IMG/VR virus record: IMGVR_UViG_3300042888_001738
Span: 1-64,000 of that record
Direction: 5' to 3' (one strand)
Origin: a virus
Length of the DNA: 64,000 nucleotides
The notes beneath the pieces were generated by a model. The model did not search any database, was not told the DNA's origin, and saw only the letters and a program-made list of their open reading frames with translations. Shown here piece after piece: positions 8,897-50,048 of this stretch (the first letter of the stretch is position 1; each line of letters opens with the position of its first letter). A program made the position numbers and the translations under genes.

Positions 8897-8913
8897 AAAA
8901 AATGATATAAAAA

Positions 8914-8945
8914 CAACACCATCCAAAAAAGGGTGGTGTTTTTTT
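8914..8945 (+). terminator. Intrinsic terminator after giant fibre 1
   Basis: A 10-bp stem (AACACCATCC with GGGTGGTGTT, one G-T wobble) around an AAAAAA loop, followed by a run of T. It lies 17 nt after the stop codon at 8896. Confidence 0.85.
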
Positions 8946-8975
8946 GTGCTTTATTACCTAAAAGAAATGATTAAA

Positions 8976-8984
8976 GTATTTATA
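8976..8984 (+). promoter_or_regulatory. Candidate late-promoter motif before giant fibre 2
   Basis: GTATTTATA, 45 nt before the ATG at 9030 and just after the preceding terminator, so the second fibre is probably an independent transcription unit. A purine-rich GGAAAG lies between them. Confidence 0.55.
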
Positions 8985-9029
8985 AAATAATAATAAATTT
9001 CTTTTGGAAAGTGAAAAAAGAAAAACTAC

Positions 9030-15000: not shown

Positions 15001-17342
15001 CATCAGGAACAAGTGGAAGTTCAGGTACTTCAGGATCATCGGGTACAAGTGGATCTTCAGGGACATCTGGATCAAGTGGAACTTCAGGAACAACAGGTAA
15101 ATCTGGAAGTTCTGGAAGTTCTGGAACAAGCGGTTCATCAGGTACTTCAGGATCTTCAGGAACATCTGGATCGAGCGGTACATCAGGAGCAGCAGGAACT
15201 TCAGGATCGAGCGGTACATCAGGAGCGGCAGGAACTAGCGGAAGTTCAGGAACTTCAGGGGTATCTTTACAAGTATTAGATGAAGGAACTTCTTTAACTA
15301 CGGCAGCGTCATCAATGAACTTTGTGGGAACTGGCGTTACTGTCACAAGCACGGGTAGTTCAGTTACTGTAAATATTACAGGTGGAGGTGGTGGTGGATC
15401 AATACCAGGATCTAACAATCAAGTTATCACATCAGATGGTGCAGGTGGAGCAGTTGCCGAATCATTATTAACATTTGACGGTACGATCACATCTCCTTAT
15501 TTGAATGTTAATAGTGTTACAGTAGGTAGAGGAAATAATAACGTCGCATCCAACATTTCAATCGGAGATGTTGCATTTAATGCCGCCGCAAACGGGTCGT
15601 ATAATATTGCCTTAGGTAAGGCGGTTTTACGAGGTATTACAAGTGGTGTGTGTAATATTGGTATCGGATTCGGAGCTCAAAACACTAATAACGTTTGTAA
15701 TGTAATTGCTATTGGTAAAAGTGCTTTGTATTATAATACAGCAAGTAGTACAATTGGTATTGGTGATTTCGCATTGAGACTTAATACCGGTGTAGGTAAT
15801 ACCGCGGTTGGTTATAGATCTATTGAAAATAATGGTATTGGTGTATATAACACAGCATTGGGTTTTGGTACTTTATTAAGTAATACTAGTGGTTCTCGAA
15901 ACGTCGCAATTGGTTCTGGAGCTTTTTGTCCCGGATCCCCAACGTCATTTAACACTCGTACTCTTGGTAAAAATCAAGGTGGTTACAACAATATTGGAAT
16001 TGGTGTTGGTGCATTACATAATAATGTAAATAATTCTCAACTTATCGCGATTGGTGTTGGGGCGTTATACAAAAATAATGGTGGAGTAAGAAACGTTGCG
16101 ATAGGTACTTGCTCTTTAGTGTATAACTCCACTGGAGTATGTAATATTGGGATTGGATATGAGAGTTTAGCAACTAATTCATATGGTGGTTGTAACATTG
16201 CAATAGGAGGAAGTCAAACACTATTTAATAACACCCTTGGTGGTGCAAACATTGCCATGGGTGTTGCTTTATACAATAACACTATTGGTAATCATAACAT
16301 TGCCTTAGGAAGATCTGCACTTTACACAAATACCACTGGTTGTGGTAATATTGCATTAGGTAGAAGAGCTTTAGCGTTTAATACCATAGGTGGATACAAC
16401 ATTGCAATGGGTCGAGGAGCAATGTATTGTAACGACAGAGGATTAAATAATGTTGCAATAGGTAGAAGTGCTCTTTATGAAAACGTTACTGGTAACGGAT
16501 CTGTTGCCATCGGTGTAAGATCATTAGCCTGTGCTAATACAGGAGGGGTCTATGGATTCCCTAACACTGCTGTTGGATCTGAGTCTCTGTATAATAACAC
16601 AACAGGATATTATAATACTGCGATTGGTTTCAGAGCGGCTTTCACCCTTTCAACTGGTTGTAGGAATACTGCTGTTGGTCATAGGGCATTATGTAGTAGT
16701 ACTTATGCATATGATAACGTTGCGGTAGGTGAAGGTGCGTTGTTAGGCAATACCACAGGGTTCAATAACGTTGGTGTTGGTCAGGGTACATTGTTAGCTA
16801 ATACAGTTGGGTATTCATCAACAGCATTAGGTTTTAGGGCCGGGGGTAATTTTACATATAACTATCAAATTGCGGTAGGTGCCAACGCGGTAACAACTAA
16901 TGTTGCATACCACACAGTTTGGGGTTCTGCGGCTAACAATGTTTATAACTGTGTGTGGGTCGCTTGGACAAACGTTTCGGATTGTAGAGATAAAGTTTGT
17001 ATTGAGACCATACCAACAAACTTAGGTTTACCATTTGTTAAAAGATTAAATCCTGTTTCATTCAATTGGGATACTAGACAATCATATGTTGATAGATGTA
17101 AATACGAATATGGTCAAAAAGACGGAACGTTATCAGGATCAACAAAAGAATATGGTATAATTGCCCAAGAAGTTGAGGAAGTAATGAATGAATTGGGCGT
17201 TAGGTTTGATGCATTAAAACACAATGAGAAAGATGACGCATACCGTTTCACTTATGAAGGTTTATTCGCACCAATTATTAAATCAATTCAAGAGTTATCG
17301 GATAAAATTGATGATTTAGAAGAAAGAATAAATAAATCATAA
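9030..17342 (+). CDS. Giant Gly-X-Y fibre protein 2 with YadA-like head and peptidase S74 chaperone
   Basis: A 2770-residue protein. Residues 1-105 form an N-terminal beta domain of the kind found in tail fibres (GQIYQIKNAGSGTITV). Residues 106-2076 are about 657 Gly-X-Y triplets of Ser and Thr with scattered Lys, Asn, Glu and Ala. A beta linker follows. Residues ~2160-2600 carry repeats such as NVAIGSGAF and NTAVGYRSI, the pattern of the trimeric-autotransporter (YadA/Hia) left-handed beta-roll head. The C-terminus is a peptidase S74 intramolecular chaperone: Ser2650 and Lys2655 in NVSDCRDK, then YGIIAQEVEEV and a coiled-coil end. S74 domains trimerise the fibre and cut themselves off before the SDxRxK serine (family knowledge). 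This indicates a very long homotrimeric fibre ending in an adhesive head. Confidence 0.88.
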   Translation: MANEFILRKGLISLGGVTFPLTQVSSTYTVDSTDYFVDAISGTFTISLPTAVGIKGQIYQIKNAGSGTITVDPNGTQTIDGQLTVTLTQNENLYIVSDGANWLLAGADGTSGSSGTSGTSGSSGSSGTSGSSGSSGSSGSSGTSGSSGTSGSSGSSGTSGSSGSSGTSGSSGTSGSSGTSGSSGTSGSSGSSGTSGSSGSSGTSGSSGTSGSSGTSGTSGSSGSSGTSGSSGTSGSSGSSGTSGSSGSSGTSGSSGTSGSSGTSGSSGSSGTSGSSGSSGTSGSSGSSGTSGSSGSSGTSGSSGTSGSSGSSGTSGSSGSSGTSGSSGTSGSSGTSGTSGSSGTSGTSGSSGSSGTSGSSGSSGTSGSSGTSGSSGSSGTSGSSGSSGTSGSSGTSGSSGTSGSSGSSGTSGSSGSSGTSGSSGSSGTSGSSGSSGTSGSSGTSGSSGTSGSSGSSGTSGSSGSSGTSGSSGTSGSSGTSGSSGSSGTSGSSGTSGSSGSSGTSGSSGSSGTSGSSGTSGSSGTSGSSGSSGTSGSSGTSGSSGSSGTSGSSGTSGSSGSSGTSGSSGTSGSSGSSGTSGSSGTSGSSGTSGSSGSSGTSGSSGSSGTSGSSGSSGTSGSSGTSGSSGSSGTSGSSGTSGSSGTSGSSGTSGSSGSSGTSGSSGTSGSSGTSGSSGTSGSSGTSGSSGSSGTSGSSGTSGSSGTSGSSGSSGTSGSSGTSGSSGSSGTSGSSGTSGSSGTSGSSGSSGTSGSSGSSGTSGSSGSSGTSGSSGSSGTSGSSGTSGSSGTSGSSGSSGTSGSSGTSGSSGTSGSSGTSGSSGSSGTSGSSGTSGSSGSSGTSGSSGTSGSSGTSGSSGTSGSSGSSGTSGSSGSSGTSGSSGTSGSSGTSGSSGSSGTSGSSGTSGSSGSSGTSGSSGTSGSSGTSGSSGSSGTSGSSGSSGTSGSSGTSGSSGSSGTSGSSGTSGSSGTSGSSGSSGTSGSSGSSGTSGSSGTSGSSGTSGSSGSSGTSGSSGSSGTSGSSGSSGSSGTSGSSGSSGTSGSSGTSGSSGTSGSSGTSGSSGTSGSSGTSGSSGTSGSSGSSGTSGSSGTSGSSGTSGSSGTSGSSGSSGTSGSSGSSGTSGSSGSSGTSGSSGTSGSSGTSGSSGSSGTSGSSGTSGSSGTSGSSGTSGSSGTSGSSGSSGTSGSSGSSGTSGSSGTSGSSGTSGSSGSSGTSGSSGSSGTSGSSGTSGSSGTSGSSGSSGKSGSSGSSGTSGSSGTSGSSGSSGTSGSSGTSGSSGTSGSSGTSGSSGTSGSSGSSGTSGSSGSSGTSGSSGTSGSSGTSGSSGTSGSSGTSGSSGSSGTSGSSGTSGSSGTSGSSGSSGISGSSGSSGTSGSSGTSGSSGSSGTSGSSGTSGSSGTSGSSGSSGTSGSSGTSGSSGSSGTSGSSGTSGSSGTSGSSGSSGKSGSSGSSGTSGSSGTSGSSGSSGTSGSSGTSGSSGTSGSSGSSGTSGSSGTSGSSGSSGTSGSSGTSGSSGSSGTSGSSGTSGSSGTSGNSGSSGSSGTSGSSGTSGSSGTSGSSGTSGNSGSSGSSGTSGSSGTSGSSGTSGNSGSSGSSGTSGSSGTSGSSGTSGNSGSSGSSGTSGSSGTSGSSGTSGNSGSSGSSGTSGSSGTSGSSGTSGSSGTSGNSGSSGSSGTSGSSGTSGSSGTSGNSGSSGSSGTSGSSGTSGSSGTSGNSGSSGSSGTSGSSGTSGSSGTSGSSGTSGSSGTSGSSGTSGNSGSSGSSGTSGSSGTSGSSGTSGSSGSSGKSGSSGSSGTSGSSGTSGSSGTSGNSGSSGSSGTSGSSGTSGSSGTSGSSGTSGNSGSSGSSGTSGSSGTSGSSGTSGSSGTSGNSGSSGSSGTSGSSGTSGSSGTSGSSGTSGNSGSSGSSGTSGSSGTSGTSGSSGTSGSSGTSGNSGSSGSSGTSGSSGTSGSSGTSGSSGSSGKSGSSGSSGTSGESGSSGSSGTSGVGGSSGSSGTSGSSGTSGSSGTSGSSGTSGSSGTSGTTGKSGSSGSSGTSGSSGTSGSSGTSGSSGTSGAAGTSGSSGTSGAAGTSGSSGTSGVSLQVLDEGTSLTTAASSMNFVGTGVTVTSTGSSVTVNITGGGGGGSIPGSNNQVITSDGAGGAVAESLLTFDGTITSPYLNVNSVTVGRGNNNVASNISIGDVAFNAAANGSYNIALGKAVLRGITSGVCNIGIGFGAQNTNNVCNVIAIGKSALYYNTASSTIGIGDFALRLNTGVGNTAVGYRSIENNGIGVYNTALGFGTLLSNTSGSRNVAIGSGAFCPGSPTSFNTRTLGKNQGGYNNIGIGVGALHNNVNNSQLIAIGVGALYKNNGGVRNVAIGTCSLVYNSTGVCNIGIGYESLATNSYGGCNIAIGGSQTLFNNTLGGANIAMGVALYNNTIGNHNIALGRSALYTNTTGCGNIALGRRALAFNTIGGYNIAMGRGAMYCNDRGLNNVAIGRSALYENVTGNGSVAIGVRSLACANTGGVYGFPNTAVGSESLYNNTTGYYNTAIGFRAAFTLSTGCRNTAVGHRALCSSTYAYDNVAVGEGALLGNTTGFNNVGVGQGTLLANTVGYSSTALGFRAGGNFTYNYQIAVGANAVTTNVAYHTVWGSAANNVYNCVWVAWTNVSDCRDKVCIETIPTNLGLPFVKRLNPVSFNWDTRQSYVDRCKYEYGQKDGTLSGSTKEYGIIAQEVEEVMNELGVRFDALKHNEKDDAYRFTYEGLFAPIIKSIQELSDKIDDLEERINKS
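9345..15257 (+). repeat. Gly-X-Y coding repeat tract 2
   Basis: 5913 nt of 9-nt Gly-X-Y units. Aspartate is essentially absent after the first triplet, unlike tract 1. Asn, Lys, Glu and Ala variants appear only in the 3' third. Confidence 0.95.
13620..14840 (+). repeat. Higher-order tandem repeat inside fibre 2
   Basis: Fourteen copies of GGTAATAGCGG (Gly-Asn-Ser) spaced mostly 72 or 90 nt apart (24 or 30 residues), with near-identical DNA between them. This contrasts with the shuffled codons elsewhere in the tract and points to recent tandem expansion. Confidence 0.85.
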
Positions 17343-21235: not shown

Positions 21236-21610
21236 TTAATATTCGTTGTAGGATTTCTCTTCAACAAACCCTGATCCGTATTTAAGATTTATTTCTTTTT
21301 TAATTTTAGCACGAACATCATTTGTGTGATAAACCGATCTTGCTAGTTCAATAAACTCTTCATCAAATTGTTTGTCTCTTTCTTTATCCCTTATTTTATC
21401 TTCAATAACCCAAAGTTTTTTATTAACCTCAAGTAATTTAAGATAATCCTCATCATGGCTAATATTTAATTCGGAAAAAACAATTTCATGTAAATAAAGA
21501 TACTCTTTATTAATGTTTGATAATTTTTCAACATCGAATATGTTTTCTTTTTTAATTTGTAGTATGGATAGTTTATCTACTATCTCTCCGATTGATGATT
21601 CTATTTTCAT
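21236..21610 (-). CDS. DUF6165-like small protein
   Basis: A 124-residue protein starting MKIESSIGEIVDKLSILQIK, a pattern I associate with DUF6165 proteins, which are found in sugar-biosynthesis and glycosyltransferase loci. The rest is charged and mostly helical. Its start overlaps the end of the upstream minus-strand glycosyltransferase by 4 nt, so it is translationally coupled to it. Function unknown; probably an accessory to glycosylation. Confidence 0.6.
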   Translation of the reverse strand: MKIESSIGEIVDKLSILQIKKENIFDVEKLSNINKEYLYLHEIVFSELNISHDEDYLKLLEVNKKLWVIEDKIRDKERDKQFDEEFIELARSVYHTNDVRAKIKKEINLKYGSGFVEEKSYNEY

Positions 21611-23910
21611 TGTAAAAGATTTTTTATTTCATTTATTACCATTTGAGGTGTTATTGATTTTTGACAAATGTGCTGTCTTTCAGTTCCTTTATATACGGGA
21701 CACCAATCCCAATCACCGGTGTCAAATACATGTACCGGATCGTTCCAACACTTAATACAAATATTGTTAGATACTCTTATAACATTAGATGTGAATTCAT
21801 GATCAATTTCACTAAATCCTGAGATCATGATAGTTTTTTTATTTAAAGCCCAATTAGCCCAAGAAAGTCCCGAACTTAAACCAACAAAAAATTCGGAATG
21901 ATATAGACAAGAAAAAACTTCATCCCAATCCGTACTTGTAATATTTATGGTACCATCAATTCTATATTCTTTAAGAGAAAGTATAACCACTGAGTATCCC
22001 ATCTCTTTGACCATTTTAGTTAACTCAACCCAATGATCGAAAGACCATTCCTTACAACCAGCAGTTGATTGTGGGCCAAATACAACATACTTAGAATTTG
22101 TTGGTCTTTCAGTTAGTTTGTGTTTTACACCATGATTTATCTCTTTATACTCTAAACCTAAAATATCGGTTGCGGTTTTTTGTAATGGTATTAAATTGGG
22201 TTGATTTGGATGTAAATTAAAATTTTTCCATCCACCGTTATCATCTCTAAACCAACCAAGTTTATATATAACATCACAATTAACTGACTCTCCTGGATTA
22301 ATAAACTCAATATCTTTATATGTTTCTAAACCTTTAAACCAATCATTACGGAAAGTACTGAGAATAACTTTACAATTTTTTTGTTTCATTAACTCAATTG
22401 CATAAGGTGCCCATGCGATCGTATCTCCGACAGACTTAGACTCAAAAGAAATCAAAACCTTTTTATTTTCAAGATTAAGTTGATCTATGATCTTTCCGTT
22501 AACTTTTATTGTCCAGGGCACATAATATTTTATGCCACATGTTGTCCACATATTATTGGTTATTGTGTCCGAATATTTTACCTTTCCATTATCATCAATA
22601 AACTCAACAAAGTAAGATGAATCAAAGTCACCAACGATCTCAACTTTAGGGCCTTCGAGGTATGAAACTTTAATTTGGTTTGTGTCTTTGGTTCTTGATA
22701 TAACTCCCGAATTAATTTTATCCGTAAACTCATCAATTTTTTCTTTACCTATTAATGCGATTTTTTCCCAAGAAAATTCATTTCTTAGTTCTTCACTTTC
22801 CTCAACTGATTTTTGTTTGTGTGAATTATAATTAGAATAGGCATCTCTCATAACACGAGATAAATCCTCAAAGTCTGGTTCGTAATAATTTCCCGGTAAA
22901 TCACTCATTGTATATCTACCATAATCATTTTCGTTAGCCGGTTTTTCACCAACTATTTTTACAGGTAAACCTTTTCCTTTGGCGAACTCCATTTGTGCTG
23001 AACATTCAGAATAGATTGATGGTGTACCACAAGCCATCGCTTCGATAAGTGGTAAATTCCACCCTTCAGATCTGGCACATGAAAGGAATACGTGACCCGT
23101 TTTTAGATATTTAATATAATCTTCTCTTGATGGGAAATGTATTATTTTAATTCTTGGGTCGGTTAAACCGTAGTTTAATAAACGTTCTTCGGTTGTTTTA
23201 AACCCGTCCATTTGTTCTCCCCACATATTATCGATAGATACGACCAAGTCAACTGGTTCATCTGGTGAAAATGTTTTAAGGAAAGTCTCAATAATTTCCT
23301 TTGTTGATTTTCTGTAATCCCAACGACCCATTAAAAGAAACTTAAACCTACCGTCTTTGTATTCATCAAGTTTTTCCACCGACTCAGGATAAAATGTATG
23401 AACATCAACCCCTTCAGGTACTACCTTAACTTTGTCGGGATCCGCACCTTGTTCTATTGTACATTCTCTTTGCCACTCACTCGGTACCCAAATTTCGTCA
23501 AACTCTAATAATTTTTTAAAAAAGTTTTCAGGTTGCCTTGTTGATTCCCATACGTTATACCCAATTTTAGGTCCAATATATTTGTCATAATATAAGTAAT
23601 GATTTGTCTCATTCAAAACTATATTAAAATCATGAAAAAATTCTTTTTCTTTTGATGGATAAATCTTGAAGTCACTCATTTTTCCATCCCCAACCCATAA
23701 CCTTTGTTGATATAAAATAGATTTATCTACATGATTGATATAAGGTTCGTTATCGTGAGGGGTATCGTTTAATCCAGTCCAAGATTCACCGATAGTAAAA
23801 TTTCTTACTTTAATTTGTGAATGTTTAGATAACTCTCTAAAAAAATCACGAGTGTGGTTATTGTAACCCGTGTTTCCGATATAAGACCCATGAACATAAA
23901 TTTTCGCCAT
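21607..23910 (-). CDS. Fusion of a GT4 glycosyltransferase and an autotransporter-heptosyltransferase-like domain
   Basis: A 767-residue two-domain protein. Residues 1-~390 are a GT-B enzyme of the GT4 type: HGSYIGNTGYNNHTR, DEIWVPSEWQRE, VVPEGVDVHTFYP, FLLMGRWDYRKS and the E-x7-E region SEGWNLPLIEAMACGTP. Residues ~450-767 are a GT9-like domain (ISFESKSVGDTIAWAPYA, VVFGPQSTAGCKEWSF, FFVGLSSGLSWANWAL). This domain ends with four cysteines, C718-x2-C721-x15-C737-x11-C749, in CIKCW, DWCP and HICQKSIT. This cysteine finger and the QKSIT...V end are characteristic of the TibC/Aah family, which attaches heptose to Ser in autotransporter repeats. The phage's Ser/Thr repeat fibres are obvious candidate acceptors (inference). 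Donor unknown. Confidence 0.75.
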   Translation of the reverse strand: MAKIYVHGSYIGNTGYNNHTRDFFRELSKHSQIKVRNFTIGESWTGLNDTPHDNEPYINHVDKSILYQQRLWVGDGKMSDFKIYPSKEKEFFHDFNIVLNETNHYLYYDKYIGPKIGYNVWESTRQPENFFKKLLEFDEIWVPSEWQRECTIEQGADPDKVKVVPEGVDVHTFYPESVEKLDEYKDGRFKFLLMGRWDYRKSTKEIIETFLKTFSPDEPVDLVVSIDNMWGEQMDGFKTTEERLLNYGLTDPRIKIIHFPSREDYIKYLKTGHVFLSCARSEGWNLPLIEAMACGTPSIYSECSAQMEFAKGKGLPVKIVGEKPANENDYGRYTMSDLPGNYYEPDFEDLSRVMRDAYSNYNSHKQKSVEESEELRNEFSWEKIALIGKEKIDEFTDKINSGVISRTKDTNQIKVSYLEGPKVEIVGDFDSSYFVEFIDDNGKVKYSDTITNNMWTTCGIKYYVPWTIKVNGKIIDQLNLENKKVLISFESKSVGDTIAWAPYAIELMKQKNCKVILSTFRNDWFKGLETYKDIEFINPGESVNCDVIYKLGWFRDDNGGWKNFNLHPNQPNLIPLQKTATDILGLEYKEINHGVKHKLTERPTNSKYVVFGPQSTAGCKEWSFDHWVELTKMVKEMGYSVVILSLKEYRIDGTINITSTDWDEVFSCLYHSEFFVGLSSGLSWANWALNKKTIMISGFSEIDHEFTSNVIRVSNNICIKCWNDPVHVFDTGDWDWCPVYKGTERQHICQKSITPQMVINEIKNLLQ

Positions 23911-38745: not shown

Positions 38746-39870
38746 TTAAATTACATATATTTGACGAGGCATTGCTCTAAACTTAAGTTGTTTGTTTAAG
38801 TTTTCCGCAAGTAACGCTTCTCTCTCCATAACTTTTTCAGGTCGTAATCTTGTTAACCTACCTTCGGGACCTATCAATTCATCCACAAGTTTTGTTTTTT
38901 CGTCTTTCGCTTCTGTTGCTAAAGATGTATAATCCATTGTTAGATCACCATCAGGTGCTTTTAAGTTACCACTAAACTTACCACGAACTCTTGCTAAGGT
39001 TTCTTTACAATAAGCGGTAAACCATCTTCTTACCCAAACCTGAGCGGGATTATTAAGTTTGTACCAACTAATTTTGTTAAATGGTACATCTGATGGTAAT
39101 AATACGATATCAGGATTATCCGCTAAACATTTATCTCTATCTCCTTGACCAACATCATAATACCAATACCAAACTCTACGTTGTGCCATTTCAGCATTTC
39201 CAAAGTCAAATCTACCACCTGGTACATTTAGTAAGTGTAATGCTTTCTTCCCGTCAGGTAACGCTGTAATATAATAAGTTAAATCAGGAGATATAATTCT
39301 TCTTTGAATGTTAATTTCCTGCATTCTTAATAACATATCAAATGCTGGCATCAAGAAGTAACTACCTGCCATATTACCCATTTGTGCGAATCCACCTGTA
39401 CCACCAATACCTCCACCGGCTATACCACCGAATGACCAGGGATCGATAAACATATTATTCATTTCTGTTGGTGAAAACCAAAGAACTTCATTGATTTCTC
39501 TACCTGCAGGAATTTCATATATTTGTTGGTTTGGTACTAATTGTACGTAATCTTTTTTGATAACCCAATCACCACCAGCTTGTAAACCAACAATCTTGGA
39601 GTATGCGTATGTGTATCTAGTTTCAAAATCTAAACTCTTGGTAACAAAGGCTCTCGCTAAAGATTGTGTGTCTAGATTTAAATTATATAATGAAGTCCAT
39701 TGAGATTCTATCAACCAATCTTGTACGTATTGTGAATAATCATCAATAGAGTACTCTAAAAGAGTATCCATCATCTCATCTTCTAATTCTACCGATCTTA
39801 AAGGGGCACCTAAAAGGTGTCTTACTTTTTGGTAGAATTCACTTCTTTCTGGTTCGTTAATAATTGCCAT
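38746..39870 (-). CDS. gp13-like neck (head-completion) protein
   Basis: A 374-residue protein. The N-terminus (RHLLGAPLRSVELEDEMMDTLLEYSIDDYSQY) follows the T4 gp13 pattern of 'LGAP..VEL...I...I..AL..Y..Y'. The C-terminal WVRRWFTAYCKETLARVRGKF plus a following Gly/Leu-rich and EAK..K..L..EL helix also parallels gp13. The middle has a Gly-rich loop (GGIAGGGIGGTGG). In T4, gp13 joins the portal and tail. A late-promoter-like motif lies 14 nt upstream on the minus strand. The alignment is from memory, so I keep moderate confidence; a different virion structural role is possible. Confidence 0.62.
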   Translation of the reverse strand: MAIINEPERSEFYQKVRHLLGAPLRSVELEDEMMDTLLEYSIDDYSQYVQDWLIESQWTSLYNLNLDTQSLARAFVTKSLDFETRYTYAYSKIVGLQAGGDWVIKKDYVQLVPNQQIYEIPAGREINEVLWFSPTEMNNMFIDPWSFGGIAGGGIGGTGGFAQMGNMAGSYFLMPAFDMLLRMQEINIQRRIISPDLTYYITALPDGKKALHLLNVPGGRFDFGNAEMAQRRVWYWYYDVGQGDRDKCLADNPDIVLLPSDVPFNKISWYKLNNPAQVWVRRWFTAYCKETLARVRGKFSGNLKAPDGDLTMDYTSLATEAKDEKTKLVDELIGPEGRLTRLRPEKVMEREALLAENLNKQLKFRAMPRQIYVI

Positions 39871-39912: not shown

Positions 39913-42108
39913 TTAGGACGGACAAACGATCTTTTCTCTATCCTTTGTTTTAACATCTAAACTAACAGGTTCTAAAACACTTTTATCTTTAAAGTAGAAA
40001 CCATCAATTTTATTATATTCAGGTTTTATCCTAAATCTTATCGATAATCTTTTTTCATCACAACCTCGTTGACCTTTGTTAGACCAATATAAATCAATAA
40101 ATTCGATAGGAACAATTAAATCACCTTCATAGATTATACCCGACATTTGACTTCTAACCTTGTTTAAATATTCCTGAGCTGAAGGTGTGGTATTTAACCA
40201 AACGAATAATTTATCGATTAATTCGTTATATAGTTTTATATAAATTGGTTTTTCACTTGATAGTGAACTTTGTTTAAAGATTGAAAAGAATTCGGACAAA
40301 TAACTATCAATAAATGGGTCCATCTTTTTTACTTCAAAAAATGATCCAGCGGGGTATAACACATTACCTTCATCATCTGTTAAATCTTTTTTAGTTATTA
40401 AGTCGGTTTTTATGTAATAACTACCCTTCTTAAATGAAGATAACATACAAGATGATATTTGATTAAATGTGTAATTTAAGGTTTCGGTACCAGAATGAAT
40501 TTTCTTTAATACATCTATTAAAGTTTCTTTTGCATCATCTGAACAGTTATAGTCTAATTGTAATTTTGTTGGTCTCTTCTCAAAGTAATCACCTGAAAAT
40601 CTATCTTCATACTTACTATGTTCTTTCTGTCTAGCATATGCCAACAGACCCTCAATATCATTAGGTATTGTCGTTGAGTACCTTTGTTTGTTTAATATTT
40701 TTTTTACTTGGTCGTCATCATATTTCTTATCAATAATAAAGTCTGAAATTAATTCTAAAAAGTTTACGGTTCTACTTGTGTCTTGGAGTGCTAATTGTAT
40801 TATTACTGGAAACGTACCTACATTTTTCTTACCAAAGAATTGATCTAATATAAACATAGAACGCTCTAATTCAGTAATCAAATATTGATCTTCTAAACCG
40901 TCTCTAAATTTTTTTAATTGGCAGTATGGTGATTCTTTAGATTTTGATTGTATGCACAAATAATCTATTTTAGAATTTCTTTTAAATGCAATTTCATTTA
41001 TCTCTTTGGATTCATTAAGTTTTTTCTTAGTTGTATGACCCACAAATAAGTCATTAACAAATTCCCAATTTACTACGTCCCAAAACTTAGAAATATATTC
41101 ATCTCTCTTATTTTGATACTTCAGGTAATACGCATGTTCCCAAACATCAAGACCAAGTAATGGATAACCACCACCCTTAACAATATTCATAAGTGGGTTG
41201 TCCTGATTAGGTGTGGACATGATTTTTAATTTTCCGTCTTTTGCCAAATATAACCAAGCCCAACCAGACCCAAAACGATCCTGAGCAGCTTTGTTAAATT
41301 CGTCTTTTAGTTTTTTTATGTTACCAAAATCTTCTCTAATCTTTTTTAAGATTTCTCCTTTCGGTAATTGTTTTTTCGGAGACAACATTTTCCAAAACAA
41401 AGCGTGGTTAAAAGCACCACCCGCATTATTTCTAACTTTATCATCAAACTTACTAATGGATTTGATAATTTCTTCTAAATCCATATCACCTTTTTTATCC
41501 TTAATTGCCTTATTCAGTTTGTCAACATACCCCTTGTAGTGTTTGTTGTAATGAATGTTCATGGTTTTAGAATCAATAAATCTTTGTAATGCGGAATATG
41601 AATAAGGTAGTTTCTCAATACCAATTTTTTTCATCTCAACCAACAAGTTTTCTTTGATGGTTTTTTTTTCAGTTAAAAGTATTTGTTCTGATAAAAGATT
41701 GATACGACCTTCTATACTTTTACTTTCATACATAATTTTTTCTAATTCAGGATGTTCTTTTTCAAACATCTTAACTAAACGACCGGCAAATGCATTCGCT
41801 TCGTCCTCATTCTGTCCACCAATGTTTGGTCCAGGTTCCCTACCTAAAATTGTCATTTGATGTTCATGAACCCACTCATGTGCAAGAGTCCTCATGATAT
41901 CCCTATTCAATCTACCTTTCGCTAAAACTTTAATAAGATTATCACCACGCCTACTACCTGTGGACATGTCTCCCCTTTTACCATCCATAAAGATAATTTT
42001 GAGATCTTGTTTCAGGGGATATTCTTTTTGTAGAAGTTTTATAAACTCACTTACAAAGTCTTTGTGTTTTTTAATTTCTTGGTTTTCGTATTTGATTGAA
42101 AGTTTCAT
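39913..42108 (-). CDS. HExxH metallopeptidase - manganese-type superoxide dismutase - unknown domain fusion
   Basis: 731 residues from the ATG at 42108 (an in-frame TTG at 42126 lies inside the promoter motif and is less likely). Residues ~1-125 form a zincin-like domain with AHEWVHEH (H77-E78-x2-H81) and NEDEANAFAGR (E101/E103). Residues ~165-355 are a complete superoxide dismutase: metal ligands His186 (NIHYNKHY), His235 (NNAGGAFNHALFW), Asp321 and His325 (LDVWEHAYYLKY), and Gln302 in NQDNPL, the manganese-type second-shell position. Residues ~365-731 match nothing I know. Both linkers carry clusters of [IL]-x-E: LSE, LTE, IKE, LVE at 139-158, and LNE, INE at 364-372. [IL]-x-E is the cleavage motif of T4-like prohead proteases. 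A late-type promoter suggests a virion-related role. Confidence 0.82.
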   Translation of the reverse strand: MKLSIKYENQEIKKHKDFVSEFIKLLQKEYPLKQDLKIIFMDGKRGDMSTGSRRGDNLIKVLAKGRLNRDIMRTLAHEWVHEHQMTILGREPGPNIGGQNEDEANAFAGRLVKMFEKEHPELEKIMYESKSIEGRINLLSEQILLTEKKTIKENLLVEMKKIGIEKLPYSYSALQRFIDSKTMNIHYNKHYKGYVDKLNKAIKDKKGDMDLEEIIKSISKFDDKVRNNAGGAFNHALFWKMLSPKKQLPKGEILKKIREDFGNIKKLKDEFNKAAQDRFGSGWAWLYLAKDGKLKIMSTPNQDNPLMNIVKGGGYPLLGLDVWEHAYYLKYQNKRDEYISKFWDVVNWEFVNDLFVGHTTKKKLNESKEINEIAFKRNSKIDYLCIQSKSKESPYCQLKKFRDGLEDQYLITELERSMFILDQFFGKKNVGTFPVIIQLALQDTSRTVNFLELISDFIIDKKYDDDQVKKILNKQRYSTTIPNDIEGLLAYARQKEHSKYEDRFSGDYFEKRPTKLQLDYNCSDDAKETLIDVLKKIHSGTETLNYTFNQISSCMLSSFKKGSYYIKTDLITKKDLTDDEGNVLYPAGSFFEVKKMDPFIDSYLSEFFSIFKQSSLSSEKPIYIKLYNELIDKLFVWLNTTPSAQEYLNKVRSQMSGIIYEGDLIVPIEFIDLYWSNKGQRGCDEKRLSIRFRIKPEYNKIDGFYFKDKSVLEPVSLDVKTKDREKIVCPS

Positions 42109-42112
42109 CTTT

Positions 42113-42121
42113 GATAAATAT
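42113..42121 (-). promoter_or_regulatory. Candidate late-promoter motif, minus strand
   Basis: Sense reading ATATTTATC, ending 4 nt before the ATG at 42108. The spacing is shorter than for most members, so a leaderless transcript or a different start is possible. Confidence 0.4.
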
Positions 42122-42137
42122 TCCAATCATAAAAAGA

Positions 42138-43907
42138 TTATCTCCTTTTATTGATTAGCTTAAGGATTTCCTCTGCTACGTCACCAGGGTTTTCAATGAT
42201 ACCATCACCCATTACCGTATTTATGATCCTCTTTTTATTGTTTAGTATGTCATATATGGCACCCTCGATGGTATTTTCGAATAGGGGATAATAAACCAAC
42301 ACATTTGATTTTTGTCCGTAACGATATGCTCGGTCTTCAGCTTGTGCGTGTTCTGCAGGTACAAACGATAGGTCATTCATAATAACAACCTCAGCGGAGG
42401 TCAATGTTAAACCAACACCCGCAGCCTTCAGGTTACCAACAAATATTCTGATCTTATCGTCATTTTGAAATGAATCGACGGATTGTTGTCTCATTGCGTT
42501 AGAACAACTACCATCAAGATACACCGCTTGTTTACCAAAGTGCTGATAGATAGTCTGAAGTGTGTCTGTAAAGTTTGTGAAGATGATAACTTTCTTACCC
42601 TGTTCTAAAATGTTTTCAGCAAACTCAATTGTCTGTTTAGTTTTCTCATTTGCAATTACCTTTCTAACCTTCATCAGTTTAGAGAATTGAACCGTAAGTG
42701 ATGATGACTCATCGGGGTTTTTATCATACCACTCATAATACTCACCCATCAAATCTTCATATTCTTTAGATTTTAATCTCAAATAAACAGGAGTAATAAT
42801 TTTGTCGGGTAGATCTAATACTTCTTCTTTTAATCTACGAAGAATTTGTTTTGATGTCCTATCCCTTAATTCCTCAAGATTAGAAGCACCCATAACGTTC
42901 CAAACTTTTCTTTTACCTGCCGTAAATTGGAATCCTTGACAATAACGGATCGCATAAGCTTTCCAATTCTGAGCCACAGGACTTTCGATTAGGTTTAATA
43001 AGTTATAATAATTCATAGGTCGAGAGGTCATCGGTGTTCCTGTTAATAACCAAACTCTATCTACCTTCTTTGCGAAACTATTAATTATCTTTGTTCTTTG
43101 CGCTTGAACATTTGATATCATGTGAGCTTCATCCAATATTACCAAATCAAATCCACTTTGTGTTAATAGAGACTCATCTTTTTTCTTTGGGTCAGAGTCG
43201 TGAAAGTTTTTAAGGATATCATAATTAACGATTACAAAATCATCTTCAGTTGAAAATTTCTTACCTTCTGCAATAAAAACAGGTCTATCTGAATAATTTG
43301 CGATTTCTCTTTGCCAATTAATCTTAAGAGACGCCGGACAAACAATTAGAATCTTTTTAGATCCAGTTTCTAACGCCGCTATAATTGTTGAGGTTGTCTT
43401 ACCAAGACCCATATCATCAGCCAAAATAAATCTTTTAGAACCCGCAAGTTTCTCAATTGCAATCTTCTGATGTTCTAGTGGTGGTCTATGAGAATACTTT
43501 GAGTAATCTATCTTAACCTGATCTATCTTGTGTGTTTTAATAAGTGCTGACTTCGGAACCCAAAATTCACTTAACTTATCCTTTTCAAAGAACTTACCCC
43601 AAACATGATAAGATTTTTCTTTTTCAACTAAAAGTTTTTCAATATAAATTTGTTCGGGAACTTGTAGTAGATATCTTTCTTCTGCGAACTTTTTAGCAAA
43701 GTATGTGTCTAACTCAACCCATTTACGAGCAACCTTTGGTGTTGTATTATGGTATGTTGTAATATATTCTGACTGATTTCTTGTTGGGTAAAACTTACTT
43801 GAGACTTCCTTCTTGTTTTTTAGGTATAATATATAGTTATTCGCACCACTATATGAGTCAAGCAAATCCAAAGCCTTATGTTCTATAAGTGATTTAGTGT
43901 TATCCAA
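42138..43907 (-). CDS. SNF2-family DNA helicase/translocase
   Basis: A 589-residue superfamily 2 ATPase. Motif I is DDMGLGKT (164-171), motif II DEAH (259-262), motif III WLLTGTPM; the second RecA domain has VIIFTNFTDTLQTI, VYLDGS, AAGVGLTLTSA and the arginine-finger motif QAEDRAYRYGQ. This is the SNF2/SMARCAL1-like type (annealing or fork-remodelling ATPases), functionally comparable to T4 UvsW, though a different family. No ATG is available near the start. The frame begins with TTG at 43907 (DNTKSLIEHKALD follows) and the next in-frame Met is at residue 166, inside motif I. No late-promoter motif is seen upstream, fitting an early or middle gene. It is divergent from the virion gene at 43966. 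Confidence 0.88.
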   Translation of the reverse strand: MDNTKSLIEHKALDLLDSYSGANNYILYLKNKKEVSSKFYPTRNQSEYITTYHNTTPKVARKWVELDTYFAKKFAEERYLLQVPEQIYIEKLLVEKEKSYHVWGKFFEKDKLSEFWVPKSALIKTHKIDQVKIDYSKYSHRPPLEHQKIAIEKLAGSKRFILADDMGLGKTTSTIIAALETGSKKILIVCPASLKINWQREIANYSDRPVFIAEGKKFSTEDDFVIVNYDILKNFHDSDPKKKDESLLTQSGFDLVILDEAHMISNVQAQRTKIINSFAKKVDRVWLLTGTPMTSRPMNYYNLLNLIESPVAQNWKAYAIRYCQGFQFTAGKRKVWNVMGASNLEELRDRTSKQILRRLKEEVLDLPDKIITPVYLRLKSKEYEDLMGEYYEWYDKNPDESSSLTVQFSKLMKVRKVIANEKTKQTIEFAENILEQGKKVIIFTNFTDTLQTIYQHFGKQAVYLDGSCSNAMRQQSVDSFQNDDKIRIFVGNLKAAGVGLTLTSAEVVIMNDLSFVPAEHAQAEDRAYRYGQKSNVLVYYPLFENTIEGAIYDILNNKKRIINTVMGDGIIENPGDVAEEILKLINKRR

Positions 43908-45798: not shown

Positions 45799-48700
45799 AT
45801 GGCAACAAACAGTAAGGTTTTTGTTTCACCAGGTGTCTATACTTCAGAGGTTGACTTAAGCTTTGTAGCACAGAGTGTTGGGGTAACTACTTTGGGTATT
45901 GCTGGAGAGACTCTGATAGGACCGGCTTTTGAACCAATCTTTATTACAAGTTTTGATGATTTCCAAACCGTATTCGGTGGGACTTCACCTGAAAAATTTG
46001 TAAATACACAGATTCCAAAGTACGAAGCCGCGTATATCGCAAAAGCATATTTACAACAATCTAACCAATTGTTTGTAACTAGAATTCTTGGTCTATCAGG
46101 ATATGATGCAGGACCATCTTGGTCAATCACAACGGTTGCAAACGTTAACCCAGATACTATCGATGTATGGTGTTTGAGTTCAGTAACAGATTTTACAACT
46201 TGTGTAACGACTTGTGTAACACCAAAAGAATTAACATTCTCAGTACAATTTACAGGTTGTACAAACGATTCAGGAACGATTAGTTATTTAACATCTTTCC
46301 CATCTGAGATTGAGGATCTATTATTATCCCAATATGAAGAGTTTAATGGTGATACCTCAACTCTAAATGATCAAATTCAAAACTTAGTATTCAATGTAAT
46401 CACAAGTACTAATCCATATACAGCGGAAGATCAACAAATTGCATACTTCGGTTCTATCGCAACTGATGATTACGATGTATTAAGTGGATCAGGATTTAGT
46501 GCTGAAACTAACGTGTTCGAAGTTCCTTCGGTTTCATTCAATGACACTGATTTGAATTCGGCGTTTAATGATTCTTGGTATTATGCATTATTTAATAATT
46601 ATGGTAATACTAATTACTCAGGTTTCTCATTCTTTACTTATGTATCAGGATTAACGGCTTATTTCCCTAACCCTACACCAACACCTGGGGCTACGGCATC
46701 ACCAACTCCTACACCTTCATTTGTAAATCCTTGTATTACACCATCACCTTTCACATCACCAACACCAACTCCTACGCCAGTTAACATCGATTGTTATTCA
46801 GGTACTATCGTTGGTAAGATCTACTACTACACAGGTACTTCTTATGTTGATTATGATAATGTTGTTGTTGGTACTTTGAGATCAAGAGGTATTTCTACTT
46901 ACACAACTGACACTAACCCAACTTATTCAGTAACAGGTACGTCAGACGTAACATTAGACATGACAGGTCAATACGCTGGAGTTCTTAAAAACCCTTACTT
47001 AACGTTTGGTGTTAATGTAGTTGATAAGTTCGGTACGTCATTTAAGTTCGAAACATCACTTACACAAAACGATCCAGAATATTTCACTAAAGTATTTGGT
47101 ATTACTAACTTCCAAAAACCAAGAATCGAGGTTCCGATATTTGCTGAAGAAGTGTTCCAATCATTCTTGAACTACTCTTGGAGAAAAGGATATATCAAAG
47201 GTCTTAACCCTAACCCAATCGCATTAGACTCAGCACAAAGTGGTGATCCTAATTCAATTGGTTGGTACTTAGATAAATGGCAAACACCAGCATCACCATA
47301 CGTGGTATCTGAATTAAGAGGTAATAAAGTTTATGACTTATTTAGATTCTACACAGTTTCTGATGGTGACGCAGCAAACACTTTAATTAAAGTTTCAATT
47401 ATCAATCAAACATACAACAACTTAACGTTTGACGTATTAATCCGTGACTATTTTGATACAGATGCAAATCCTGTAGTACTTGAGAAATTTACAAACTGTA
47501 CTATGGATCCAGGACAAAATAACTTTGTTGCGAATAAAATTGGTACATTAGATGGAGAATACTTGTTAAACTCTAGATATGTGATGGTTGAAATGAGTGA
47601 GGATGCTCCGATAGACGCATTACCTTGTGGATTCAACGGATTCAACTTTAGAAATTATGCAGGTGCTAATTCACCATTCCCAATTATCAAAGGTAAATAT
47701 GACTTCCCTGGTGAAGTTATTTACAACCCACCGTTTGGTTTATCTTCAGGTAACGATAACGCGTTGATAAGCCCGGGAGATAATGTAAGAAGAACTTACT
47801 TAGGTATATCCAATAGTTTAGGTTGGGACCCTGCTTACTTCGAATATGTTGGTAAGAGAAATCCAATCAACTCTTGTGATATCGATGGTTTACCATTTAA
47901 CTACAGATCCGCTGGTTTCCACATGGACGTAAATGCAAGTGGTTTAACAATCGGACCTGAGTTCTCAACAGCAGGTGACCAAAGATTTATCTGTGGTAAC
48001 TCACCGTTCATTACTGATCCTGAATCACCAACAAATGCATACTACAGATTGTTCGCTCGTAAGTTCACATTCTTAGTACAAGGTGGTTTCGATGGTTGGG
48101 ATATCTACAGAGAGTGGAGAACAAATACAGACCAATTCCAAATTGGTAGAAGTGGATTCTTAAGAGGGGCTTGTCCTTCTACAAGATACCCTAACGCTAC
48201 AGGATGGGGAGCATTCAAAGAGATTTCTCTTGGTGATGGAACTCAAAACTTTGCAAACTCTGACTACTACGCATACTTGTTAGGTCAACAAACATTTGCA
48301 AACCCTGAAGCGACAAACATCAACGTATTCGTTACACCTGGTATTGATTATGTAAATAACAGTAACCTTGTAGAGGCAGCAGTTGAGATGATCGAGTTTA
48401 ACAGAGCGGATTCACTTTACGTGTGTACAACACCTGACGTGGATATGTATGTTCCTAACTTGAACGGTCAAGACTTATTAATCTACCCAACTGAAGCGGT
48501 TGATAACTTGGATAACACAGGAATTGACTCTAACTACACAGCAACTTACTATCCGTGGGTATTGACAAGAGATAGTGTGAATAACACTCAAATCTATATC
48601 CCACCAACAGCTGAGGTTACAAGAAACTTAGCGTTAACAGATAACATCGCGTTCCCATGGTTCGCAGCGGCGGGTTACACTCGTGGTATTGTTAACTGTA

Positions 48701-49149
48701 TCAAGGCTCGTAAGAAGTTGACTCAAGAAGATAGAGACATTCTTTATATAGGTAGAATTAACCCAATTGCAACCTTCGCTGATGTTGGTACTGTGATTTG
48801 GGGTAATAAAACTCTACAAGTTAGAGAATCTGCTCTTGACAGAATCAACGTAAGAAGATTGTTGTTACAAGCTCGTAAATTGATTTCAGCGGTATCTGTA
48901 AGATTATTGTTTGAACAAAACGACGCACAAGTTAGACAAGACTTCTTAAATGCGGTTAACCCAATCTTAGATGCGATCAGAAGAGATCGTGGTTTATATG
49001 ACTTCCGTGTAACGGTTTCTAATGATCCTGAGGATATTGATAGAAACCAATTGACAGGTAAGATTTACATCAAACCTACAAGATCACTTGAGTTCATCGA
49101 CATCACATTCTACATCACTCCAACAGGAGCATCGTTTGAGAATATATAA
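45799..49149 (+). CDS. Contractile tail sheath protein, enlarged, with Pro-Thr insert
   Basis: A 1116-residue tail sheath protein (T4 gp18 has about 660). The N-terminus (FVSPGVYTSEVDLSF, then GIAGETLIGPAFEP, ITSFDDFQTVFGG, ILGLSGYDAG) and the C-terminus (LFEQNDAQVRQDFLNAVNPIL, GLYDFRV, TGKIYIKPTRSLEFIDITF) are unmistakable sheath signatures. Between them are large extra domains. These include a Cys-containing segment (TTCVTTCVTP) and a stalk-like insert at residues ~292-327 (PTPTPGATASPTPTP, SPTPTPTPV) of the same composition as the stalks in other virion proteins. The inserts would project from the sheath surface. Preceded by a late-promoter motif and followed by a terminator, so probably monocistronic and highly expressed. 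Confidence 0.93.
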   Translation: MATNSKVFVSPGVYTSEVDLSFVAQSVGVTTLGIAGETLIGPAFEPIFITSFDDFQTVFGGTSPEKFVNTQIPKYEAAYIAKAYLQQSNQLFVTRILGLSGYDAGPSWSITTVANVNPDTIDVWCLSSVTDFTTCVTTCVTPKELTFSVQFTGCTNDSGTISYLTSFPSEIEDLLLSQYEEFNGDTSTLNDQIQNLVFNVITSTNPYTAEDQQIAYFGSIATDDYDVLSGSGFSAETNVFEVPSVSFNDTDLNSAFNDSWYYALFNNYGNTNYSGFSFFTYVSGLTAYFPNPTPTPGATASPTPTPSFVNPCITPSPFTSPTPTPTPVNIDCYSGTIVGKIYYYTGTSYVDYDNVVVGTLRSRGISTYTTDTNPTYSVTGTSDVTLDMTGQYAGVLKNPYLTFGVNVVDKFGTSFKFETSLTQNDPEYFTKVFGITNFQKPRIEVPIFAEEVFQSFLNYSWRKGYIKGLNPNPIALDSAQSGDPNSIGWYLDKWQTPASPYVVSELRGNKVYDLFRFYTVSDGDAANTLIKVSIINQTYNNLTFDVLIRDYFDTDANPVVLEKFTNCTMDPGQNNFVANKIGTLDGEYLLNSRYVMVEMSEDAPIDALPCGFNGFNFRNYAGANSPFPIIKGKYDFPGEVIYNPPFGLSSGNDNALISPGDNVRRTYLGISNSLGWDPAYFEYVGKRNPINSCDIDGLPFNYRSAGFHMDVNASGLTIGPEFSTAGDQRFICGNSPFITDPESPTNAYYRLFARKFTFLVQGGFDGWDIYREWRTNTDQFQIGRSGFLRGACPSTRYPNATGWGAFKEISLGDGTQNFANSDYYAYLLGQQTFANPEATNINVFVTPGIDYVNNSNLVEAAVEMIEFNRADSLYVCTTPDVDMYVPNLNGQDLLIYPTEAVDNLDNTGIDSNYTATYYPWVLTRDSVNNTQIYIPPTAEVTRNLALTDNIAFPWFAAAGYTRGIVNCIKARKKLTQEDRDILYIGRINPIATFADVGTVIWGNKTLQVRESALDRINVRRLLLQARKLISAVSVRLLFEQNDAQVRQDFLNAVNPILDAIRRDRGLYDFRVTVSNDPEDIDRNQLTGKIYIKPTRSLEFIDITFYITPTGASFENI
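46672..46780 (+). repeat. Pro-Thr codon repeat inside the sheath gene
   Basis: Two CCN-ACN blocks separated by a Cys-containing stretch. Codons match the PT repeats at 2434-2694 and in the gene at 34650. Confidence 0.75.
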
Positions 49150-49220: not shown

Positions 49221-50048
49221 ATGAATTATAAAAAAATTGTTAAACAGATCATTTCAGAGATCATTCACGATCAGATGAAACCTACAATGAAGTATTATGC
49301 TTTTGACTGGGATGATAACCTTATGTATATGCCAACTAAAATCTATACCAAAGATGATAAAGGTAAGGTTGTTGGTATGTCAACAGAAGATTTTGCGGAA
49401 TACAGAACTGAAATCGGTAAAGAACCCTTCGAATATGAGGGACATACCATAGTTGGTTTTGATGAAAACCCATTTAGAGACTTCAACGTACCTGGTGATG
49501 AAGGGTTTTTAAAAGATGCAATGAAAGCACCTACAGGACCAGCATGGAGTGATTTTGTTGAGGCGGTTAATAATGGGTCAGTTTTTTCGATCATTACAGC
49601 AAGGGGACACACACCTTCAGTTCTTAAAAATGCGGTTTATAACTTAATTAAGAAAAACAAACACGGATTAAGTGAAAAAGAATTAATTAAAAATTTAAAA
49701 AAATATAGAGAACTAGCTGATGAAGATGATTTATCTGATGAGGAACTTCTTAGGTCTTACTTAGATATGAACAAATATCACCCTGTAAGTTTCGGACAAG
49801 GTTCTGCTGCTAACCCTGAACAACTTAAAGTCGACGCTATGAAAGAATTTATGACATACGTCCAAAATCTTTCTAGAAGATTGCAAGAAAAGGCATTTAT
49901 GAAAAATAAGATTAGCAATTATTTTGTTCCTTATATTGGTTTTTCAGATGATGACTTAAGAAATGTTCAAGCAATGAAGAAACATTTTGATGATGAAACT
50001 GGTTTAGAAATTTATCATACAGGAGGAGGAAAGAAGACTAAATACTAA
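49221..50048 (+). CDS. HAD-superfamily phosphohydrolase
   Basis: A 275-residue protein. Residues 24-38 are KYYAFDWDDNLMYMP, with the catalytic DxD of HAD hydrolases; FSIITARGH gives motif II (Thr) and PYIGFSDDDLRNVQAM the acidic motif IV. A ~100-residue cap lies in between. The first 20 residues (MNYKKIVKQIISEIIHDQ) precede the fold as an amphipathic leader ending in I-S-E, similar in style to T4 capsid-targeting sequences cut at [IL]-x-E. It sits alone between sheath and tube genes with its own late-promoter motif, so it may be packaged or virion-associated (inference). Substrate unknown. Confidence 0.75.
   Translation: MNYKKIVKQIISEIIHDQMKPTMKYYAFDWDDNLMYMPTKIYTKDDKGKVVGMSTEDFAEYRTEIGKEPFEYEGHTIVGFDENPFRDFNVPGDEGFLKDAMKAPTGPAWSDFVEAVNNGSVFSIITARGHTPSVLKNAVYNLIKKNKHGLSEKELIKNLKKYRELADEDDLSDEELLRSYLDMNKYHPVSFGQGSAANPEQLKVDAMKEFMTYVQNLSRRLQEKAFMKNKISNYFVPYIGFSDDDLRNVQAMKKHFDDETGLEIYHTGGGKKTKY

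Follow-up and report, generated by a model that had tools for sequence, protein, structure and literature searches.

A superoxide dismutase fused to a zincin-like metallopeptidase in large freshwater phages, with interdomain linkers that look like prohead protease sites

Why would a phage join a metallopeptidase and a complete superoxide dismutase (SOD) in a single polypeptide, and encode it beside the genes for its virion? The question is raised by a gene in the 64,000-nucleotide stretch of viral DNA analysed here (hereafter the window; positions 1 to 64,000 of the IMG/VR record IMGVR_UViG_3300042888_001738, which is itself a fragment of 129.8 kb). A preliminary description, made from the nucleotide sequence, had placed at 39913-42108 on the minus strand an HExxH domain, a full Mn-type SOD and approximately 365 residues without a known family. 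The coordinates and the strand were correct, and the three-part layout is borne out by the open reading frame (ORF), by Pfam and by the invariant residues described below.

The fused gene and its two enzymatic domains

The ORF is single and uninterrupted over 731 codons (window positions 39913-42108, minus strand), with its ATG at 42108 and its stop codon at 39913-39915. The encoded protein begins with a zincin-like metallopeptidase domain (residues 1-141; 41686-42108), which is followed by a first linker (residues 141-158; 41635-41688), the Mn-type SOD (residues 159-366; 41011-41634) and an exchangeable C-terminal module (residues 367-731; 39916-41010), all on the minus strand. The second linker, between the SOD and the module, carries a putative cleavage site after E366, KKKLNE/S (41011-41019; here and below a slash marks the putative cut).

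A search of IMG/VR yielded 151 tblastn-confirmed sequences related to the entire protein and 430 related to its N-terminal domain, from which the top 80 of each scan were retrieved. At 238 retrieved loci, some contigs being counted repeatedly among them, the N-terminal domain shares a single ORF with the SOD; the only departures are L238, which lies at a contig end, and L112, whose contig is frameshifted. Removal of near-duplicates left 75 complete proteins, and an earlier set comprised 37 representatives. The preliminary description had named an assembly error as a possible source of the fusion, and nothing beyond the unusual architecture speaks for such an origin. An assembly artefact is refuted, because the same intact fusion occurs in independent contigs from many metagenomes, 75 of them non-redundant; the fusion is real, and we assign practically no probability to an artefact of assembly or annotation that joined separate genes.

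The statement that this architecture had not been described in phages holds for the 50,697 GenBank phage records, among which the fusion was not found. The matches there were standalone SODs of PA5oct-like and Vibrio jumbo phages, together with bacterial carry-over in phage-labelled records. The freshwater 'bacteriophage' record MW462191, which contains an SOD, was rejected as a phage case, as its neighbouring genes look bacterial. With the patterns used, relatives of the N-terminal domain were absent from the GTDB contigs of 84,980 prokaryote genomes.

In the N-terminal domain, the residues H77, E78 and H81 of the motif HEWVH (residues 77-81; 41880-41866), as well as E101 and E103, are invariant in the 37 non-redundant relatives. 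Its predicted structure (pLDDT 85) gave Foldseek matches that were all weak, the best being gluzincin-type metalloproteins: an M61 peptidase (probability 0.97, E 0.043), PprI/IrrE and thermolysin-type proteins. We therefore call the domain zincin-like mainly on account of the HExxH motif and the invariant glutamates. The Pfam peptidase families M78, M76 and SprT scored below the cut-off in one member. An assignment to peptidase M78 (ImmA/IrrE, PF06114) was rejected, since the domain of the window gave no match and that of L080 reached 11.8 bits against a cut-off of 22. Thus the peptidase proposed in the preliminary description stands as far as its motif and its glutamates are concerned, and the fold and family matches behind the name are weak.

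The SOD was recognised by Pfam well over the curated cut-offs, with Sod_Fe_N at residues 165-243 (E 4.4e-22, 78.8 bits vs a cut-off of 27) and Sod_Fe_C at residues 249-353 (E 1.3e-40, 138 bits vs 20.9). The best PDB matches were Mn-SODs (E 5e-67 over residues 166-352), and among the best-matching solved structures is a Mn-SOD of Sphingobacterium, a genus of Bacteroidota. The four metal ligands H186, H235, D321 and H325, substitution of which had been raised as a possible objection, are invariant in the 37 representatives, as are Y194, W239, Q302 and the Mn-type glycine G231; the gateway and outer-sphere residues are present. G231 and Q302 are the equivalents of Gly77 and Gln146 in the Mn-type second sphere, and the preference for Mn is a predicted one. 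The enzyme looks catalytically complete and is under strong purifying selection: pairwise dN/dS is ~0.03 for the SOD, 0.07-0.10 for the peptidase and 0.09-0.10 for the C-terminal module, the values against L007 being rough because synonymous sites are near saturation.

Among cellular SODs, the nearest come mostly from Bacteroidota. In the tree, one long branch (1.72 changes per site, support 99/100) runs between the 75 phage SODs and every one of the 35 bacterial SODs sampled, which makes the acquisition by these phages look single and old; the Vibrio phage sequence forms a very long branch in this tree, for which placement is impossible.

Genomic neighbourhood and exchangeable C-terminal modules

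The fused gene lies between an SNF2-family helicase gene upstream (42138-43907, minus strand; SNF2-rel_dom, E 1.2e-30) and a gene for an Ad2-like neck or head-tail adaptor protein downstream (38746-39870, minus strand; phrog_211, E 5.7e-10), the latter as the preliminary description had reported. This order is conserved: among 75 loci, the helicase is present in 74 and the neck protein in 72.

A promoter-like box, TATTTAT, precedes the gene (42114-42120, minus strand), 5 nt before the ATG. It occurs within 50 nt upstream in 69 of the 75 relatives and at exactly 5 nt from the ATG in 63, which supports the assigned start, and upstream of genes it is enriched 14.6-fold in this genome and 7.7-fold in the relative G002. 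Because it is conserved and enriched, the upstream motif noticed in the preliminary description is a real phage motif; its label of 'late type' needs amending, as the box corresponds to the late box of T4 only when reverse-complemented. The box suggests a phage-specific promoter and possibly leaderless mRNAs, and the gene is presumably expressed late. Genome-wide, TATTTAT often stands only 4-7 nt before the ATG.

Three relatives also encode ribosomal protein bS21, roughly 1 kb away from the gene for the prohead protease and on the other strand, an arrangement that has been described for freshwater Bacteroidetes phages (PMC9723584). The carriers of the fusion are a widespread group of large freshwater phages, with hosts probably among the Bacteroidota.

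Several other genes of the window deserve mention in their own right. Two giant ORFs of 2037 and 2770 aa occupy positions 2783-17342, the first with GTSGTS-type repeats near its start, and the long overlapping antisense ORFs under both are probably spurious. The tail sheath protein (45799-49149) has 1116 aa with inserted TPTPTP-rich stretches and is far larger than the T4 sheath. A 767-aa protein with two glycosyltransferase-like regions (Glycos_transf_1 and Glyco_transf_9) is encoded on the minus strand among plus-strand genes (21607-23910).

What follows the SOD differs from phage to phage. Twenty-three of the 75 proteins are short forms of 361-367 aa with nothing behind the SOD, and the others carry one of three unrelated modules: class A, the type of the window, in 13, class B in 27 (length variants included) and class C in 12. 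The three classes were considered as divergent homologues and rejected as such, with profile comparison giving only E 0.05-0.5. For the C-terminal 365 residues of the window protein no Pfam family matched. The class A module was modelled confidently (pLDDT 84), Foldseek matched the model to no solved fold in the PDB, and the single good match obtained was to an uncharacterised protein from an uncultured phage of marine origin. A PD-(D/E)XK nuclease, suggested by D..ExK-like patterns seen by eye, was also rejected for these modules, given the lack of a PDB match for the class A model and of nuclease profile matches for classes A, B and C. Module A is also found in proteins without the SOD, preceded either by nothing more than a short N-terminal peptide or by an N-terminal domain of another type. 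Two class B members (L201 and L225) contain extra modules of ~100 aa (KEKSALKWLNKKFG...), in one case in tandem, each of which follows INE/S. Such module swapping resembles effector diversification.

These data bear on the possibility that the protein is a structural component of the neck or tail, in which the SOD and zincin folds would serve as scaffolding only. The adjoining neck gene fits this explanation, but the catalytic residues of both domains are all invariant, the SOD is constrained as strongly as its dN/dS indicates, and the third module varies freely in size and presence. We consider a purely structural role very improbable.

Linkers, prohead protease and capsid-targeting-like peptides

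T4 prohead protease cuts after [LI]xE. When alignment columns over residues 1-400 were compared, the columns richest in [LI]xE were exactly the four at the domain junctions: E141 (49/54), E158 (49/54), E147 (45/54) and E366 (38/54, 13 of the sequences being short forms without the last region). The motif directly precedes M159, at which the SOD domain begins (start sequence MKKIGIEKLPYSY), in 69 of 73 sequences, and between SOD and module in all 52 extended forms; the short forms stop before this second site. We counted 226 [LI]xE sites in linker 1, where shuffling of the residues gave 117 +/- 8; elsewhere, 11-23% of 22-residue windows include the motif. As a motif, [LI]xE is weak and frequent in helices, and the linker counts are not independent of one another because the sequences are related. 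In AlphaFold2 models, the domain borders fall below a pLDDT of 60 between well-folded domains.

A cognate protease is encoded by relatives of this phage. Three that carry the fusion (G001, G002 and G005) possess an S77, T4-gp21-type prohead protease (E ~1e-23), in which the motifs NHP and GISSRG are present, and the propeptide of their gp23-type capsid protein ends in YLINE or FLINE before ATSDG, ATSET or ASSDG. Neither the protease nor the capsid gene was found in the 129.8-kb record from which the window is taken; as this record is an incomplete fragment, the cognate protease is known from the relatives only. The interdomain linkers look like targets of the protease with which the phage matures its head, and this suggests that the enzymes enter the particle as cargo and are liberated inside it. 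The SOD set free in this way would probably be a normal-sized protein of ~208 aa (residues 159-366).

Alternatively, the protein could be cut by its own N-terminal zincin-like metallopeptidase, either within the head or once injected. In the polyvalent proteins of phages and plasmids, zincin-like domains form the hub and were proposed to carry out the processing (Iyer et al. 2017, PMC5512222), and the HExxH motif and the conserved glutamates are intact in 37 of 37 relatives. Nevertheless, the junctions obey the [LI]xE rule of S77 proteases and match the LINE/A of the capsid protein of the phages' own relatives, and module A keeps such sites beside partners that lack this peptidase domain. Self-processing therefore appears quite unlikely to us, even though it is one of the two nearest competitors of cleavage by the prohead protease.

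The other is that the gene is an ordinary auxiliary metabolic gene, whose late SOD would lower superoxide in the cytoplasm of the infected cell, with the fusion being incidental and nothing packaged. A metabolic benefit is plausible, and free-standing SODs do occur in PA5oct-like and Vibrio jumbo phages. Against this, the peptidase domain was never seen apart from the SOD among the fetched loci (the best 80 per scan, so that rare cases could be missed), the place of the gene beside virion genes is constant (72-74 of 75 loci), each domain is bordered by conserved sites, and the swapped modules have the look of diversifying effectors. A cytoplasmic enzyme of this kind is unlikely, in our judgement.

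Further hints of cargo come from short peptides that resemble the capsid-targeting sequence (CTS) of T4. Standalone copies of module A in other phages start with MKIIISESQFLKLKE/N, MKFIMSESQYNRIFE/S or MKILISESQLVRLTE/K (MKIIISESQ..LKE/-type), and alternative fusions of module A carry the same peptide internally, e.g. INIIITEEQYEHLNE/ and LNIIISEKQYELLSE/M. Four consecutive small genes in the record of the window (positions 124941-126870 of the record, locus L166) begin with MKIIITESQ..LLKE/S-type peptides, and their products are candidate packaged proteins. The CTS-like N-terminal pattern was absent from 355 kb of bacterial control sequence. A general enrichment of [LI]xE at N-termini was seen in G002 (87/226 vs 37-56) and was absent in the record of the window. 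The fused protein itself has no short N-terminal CTS ending in [LI]xE, its N-terminus being a folded domain.

Two further proteins with CTS-like peptides were noted. The gene just after that for the tail sheath (49221-50045) encodes a protein whose N-terminus is CTS-like (MNYKKIVKQIISE/I) and which contains a HAD-like motif, FDWDDNLM. At L293 (1072-4080), a protein of 1003 aa unites module A with a second HExxH domain (TFAHEIQHMLENR) and, at its N-terminus, a domain of membrane type; it has internal CTS-like linkers and is another possible cargo polyprotein.

A putative cargo polyprotein and its relation to known systems

Taking the border sites and the synteny as our guide to packaging and delivery, we favour, with moderate confidence, the view that the protein is a cargo polyprotein packaged in the virion, from which the prohead protease releases the peptidase, the SOD and the effector for injection together with the DNA. 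We regard carriage in the virion as likely, and the fusion is probably a polyprotein with prohead-protease-type sites rather than a static virion enzyme. The polyprotein would be made late and would co-assemble into the prohead, where the T4-gp21-type S77 protease would cut after [LI]xE in the flexible linkers (at E141/E147/E158 and at E366). Three proteins would thereby be freed inside the maturing capsid, namely the zincin-like metallopeptidase, the ~208-aa Mn-SOD and the exchangeable C-terminal effector, and these would be injected along with the DNA. The SOD may then clear superoxide from the surroundings of the entering DNA, and host targets may be acted on by the other two, peptidase and effector.

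The closest described class is that of the polyvalent proteins (PMC5512222). The fusion shares with them the union of unrelated activities in one polypeptide, an HExxH domain that is putatively a zincin-like peptidase, modular domain exchange, and predicted packaging with injection at entry; at least two disparate activities, judged from sequence motifs, and variable architectures around shared domains were both found in it. In contrast to polyvalent proteins, its domain borders carry prohead-protease-type sites and it occupies a fixed syntenic locus of one lineage. The word 'superoxide' is absent from the paper that defines the class, so an SOD seems new to it, and an SOD in such a protein appears to be undescribed.

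The internal head proteins of T4 (IPI-III and Alt; PMC3012670, PMC9958956) offer a second parallel, with an S77-type protease, [LI]xE-type processing and fast-varying injected effectors, and the standalone homologues of the third module likewise carry short CTS-like N-termini. In T4, the CTS directs a variety of injected proteins into the head and can take foreign ones there as well (PMC3012670). T4 internal proteins are, however, single small cargos behind a CTS of ~10-20 aa, whereas the fusion comprises several folded enzymes, of which a folded domain of 141 aa comes first. The ejection proteins of the giant phages SPN3US and phiKZ (PMC5694885, PMC10052503) are packaged proteins with long N-terminal propeptides and several internal sites, which the prohead protease cuts after E; cleavage C-terminal to Glu is common to giant phages and T4 (PMC5694885). 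The motif in these ejection proteins is AxE or SxE, compared with [LI]xE in the fusion, and the portions of text searched make no mention of SOD. The fusion would work like a polyvalent protein and like a T4 internal protein and is strictly neither, because it lacks a short N-terminal CTS and its delivery is inferred.

As for viral SODs, the Cu/Zn-SOD of chlorovirus PBCV-1 is late, was reported in the virion and was proposed to lower superoxide in the infected cell (PMC7019647). PBCV-1 is a virus of eukaryotic algae and its SOD is an unrelated enzyme encoded by a gene of its own, in contrast to the Mn-type SOD of the fusion. The phage Fe/Mn SODs of the PA5oct group and of Vibrio phage 2.275.O are short and about 28-30% identical to the query domain, and the Vibrio one is unfused. 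In the literature searched, we found no SOD in a phage virion.

If the favoured reading is extended to the whole group, a new virion-delivery system emerges, which we put forward tentatively, as something a little short of probable. Jumbo-type phages of Bacteroidota would build beads-on-a-string cargo polyproteins with CTS-like or [LI]xE linkers, use the prohead protease as their processor, and deliver a metallopeptidase and a Mn-SOD along with effectors that are rapidly exchanged, the SOD countering an oxidative response of the host or protecting the DNA at entry. The linker pattern supplies a simple rule, based on [LI]xE borders and on peptides of the MKIIITESQ type, by which packaged cargo can be predicted across a large group of uncultured phages, and it points to many effector modules without known function. 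If a redox enzyme is truly carried in the phage particle, this would suggest that superoxide matters at phage entry, and phage-triggered oxidative stress would become directly testable.
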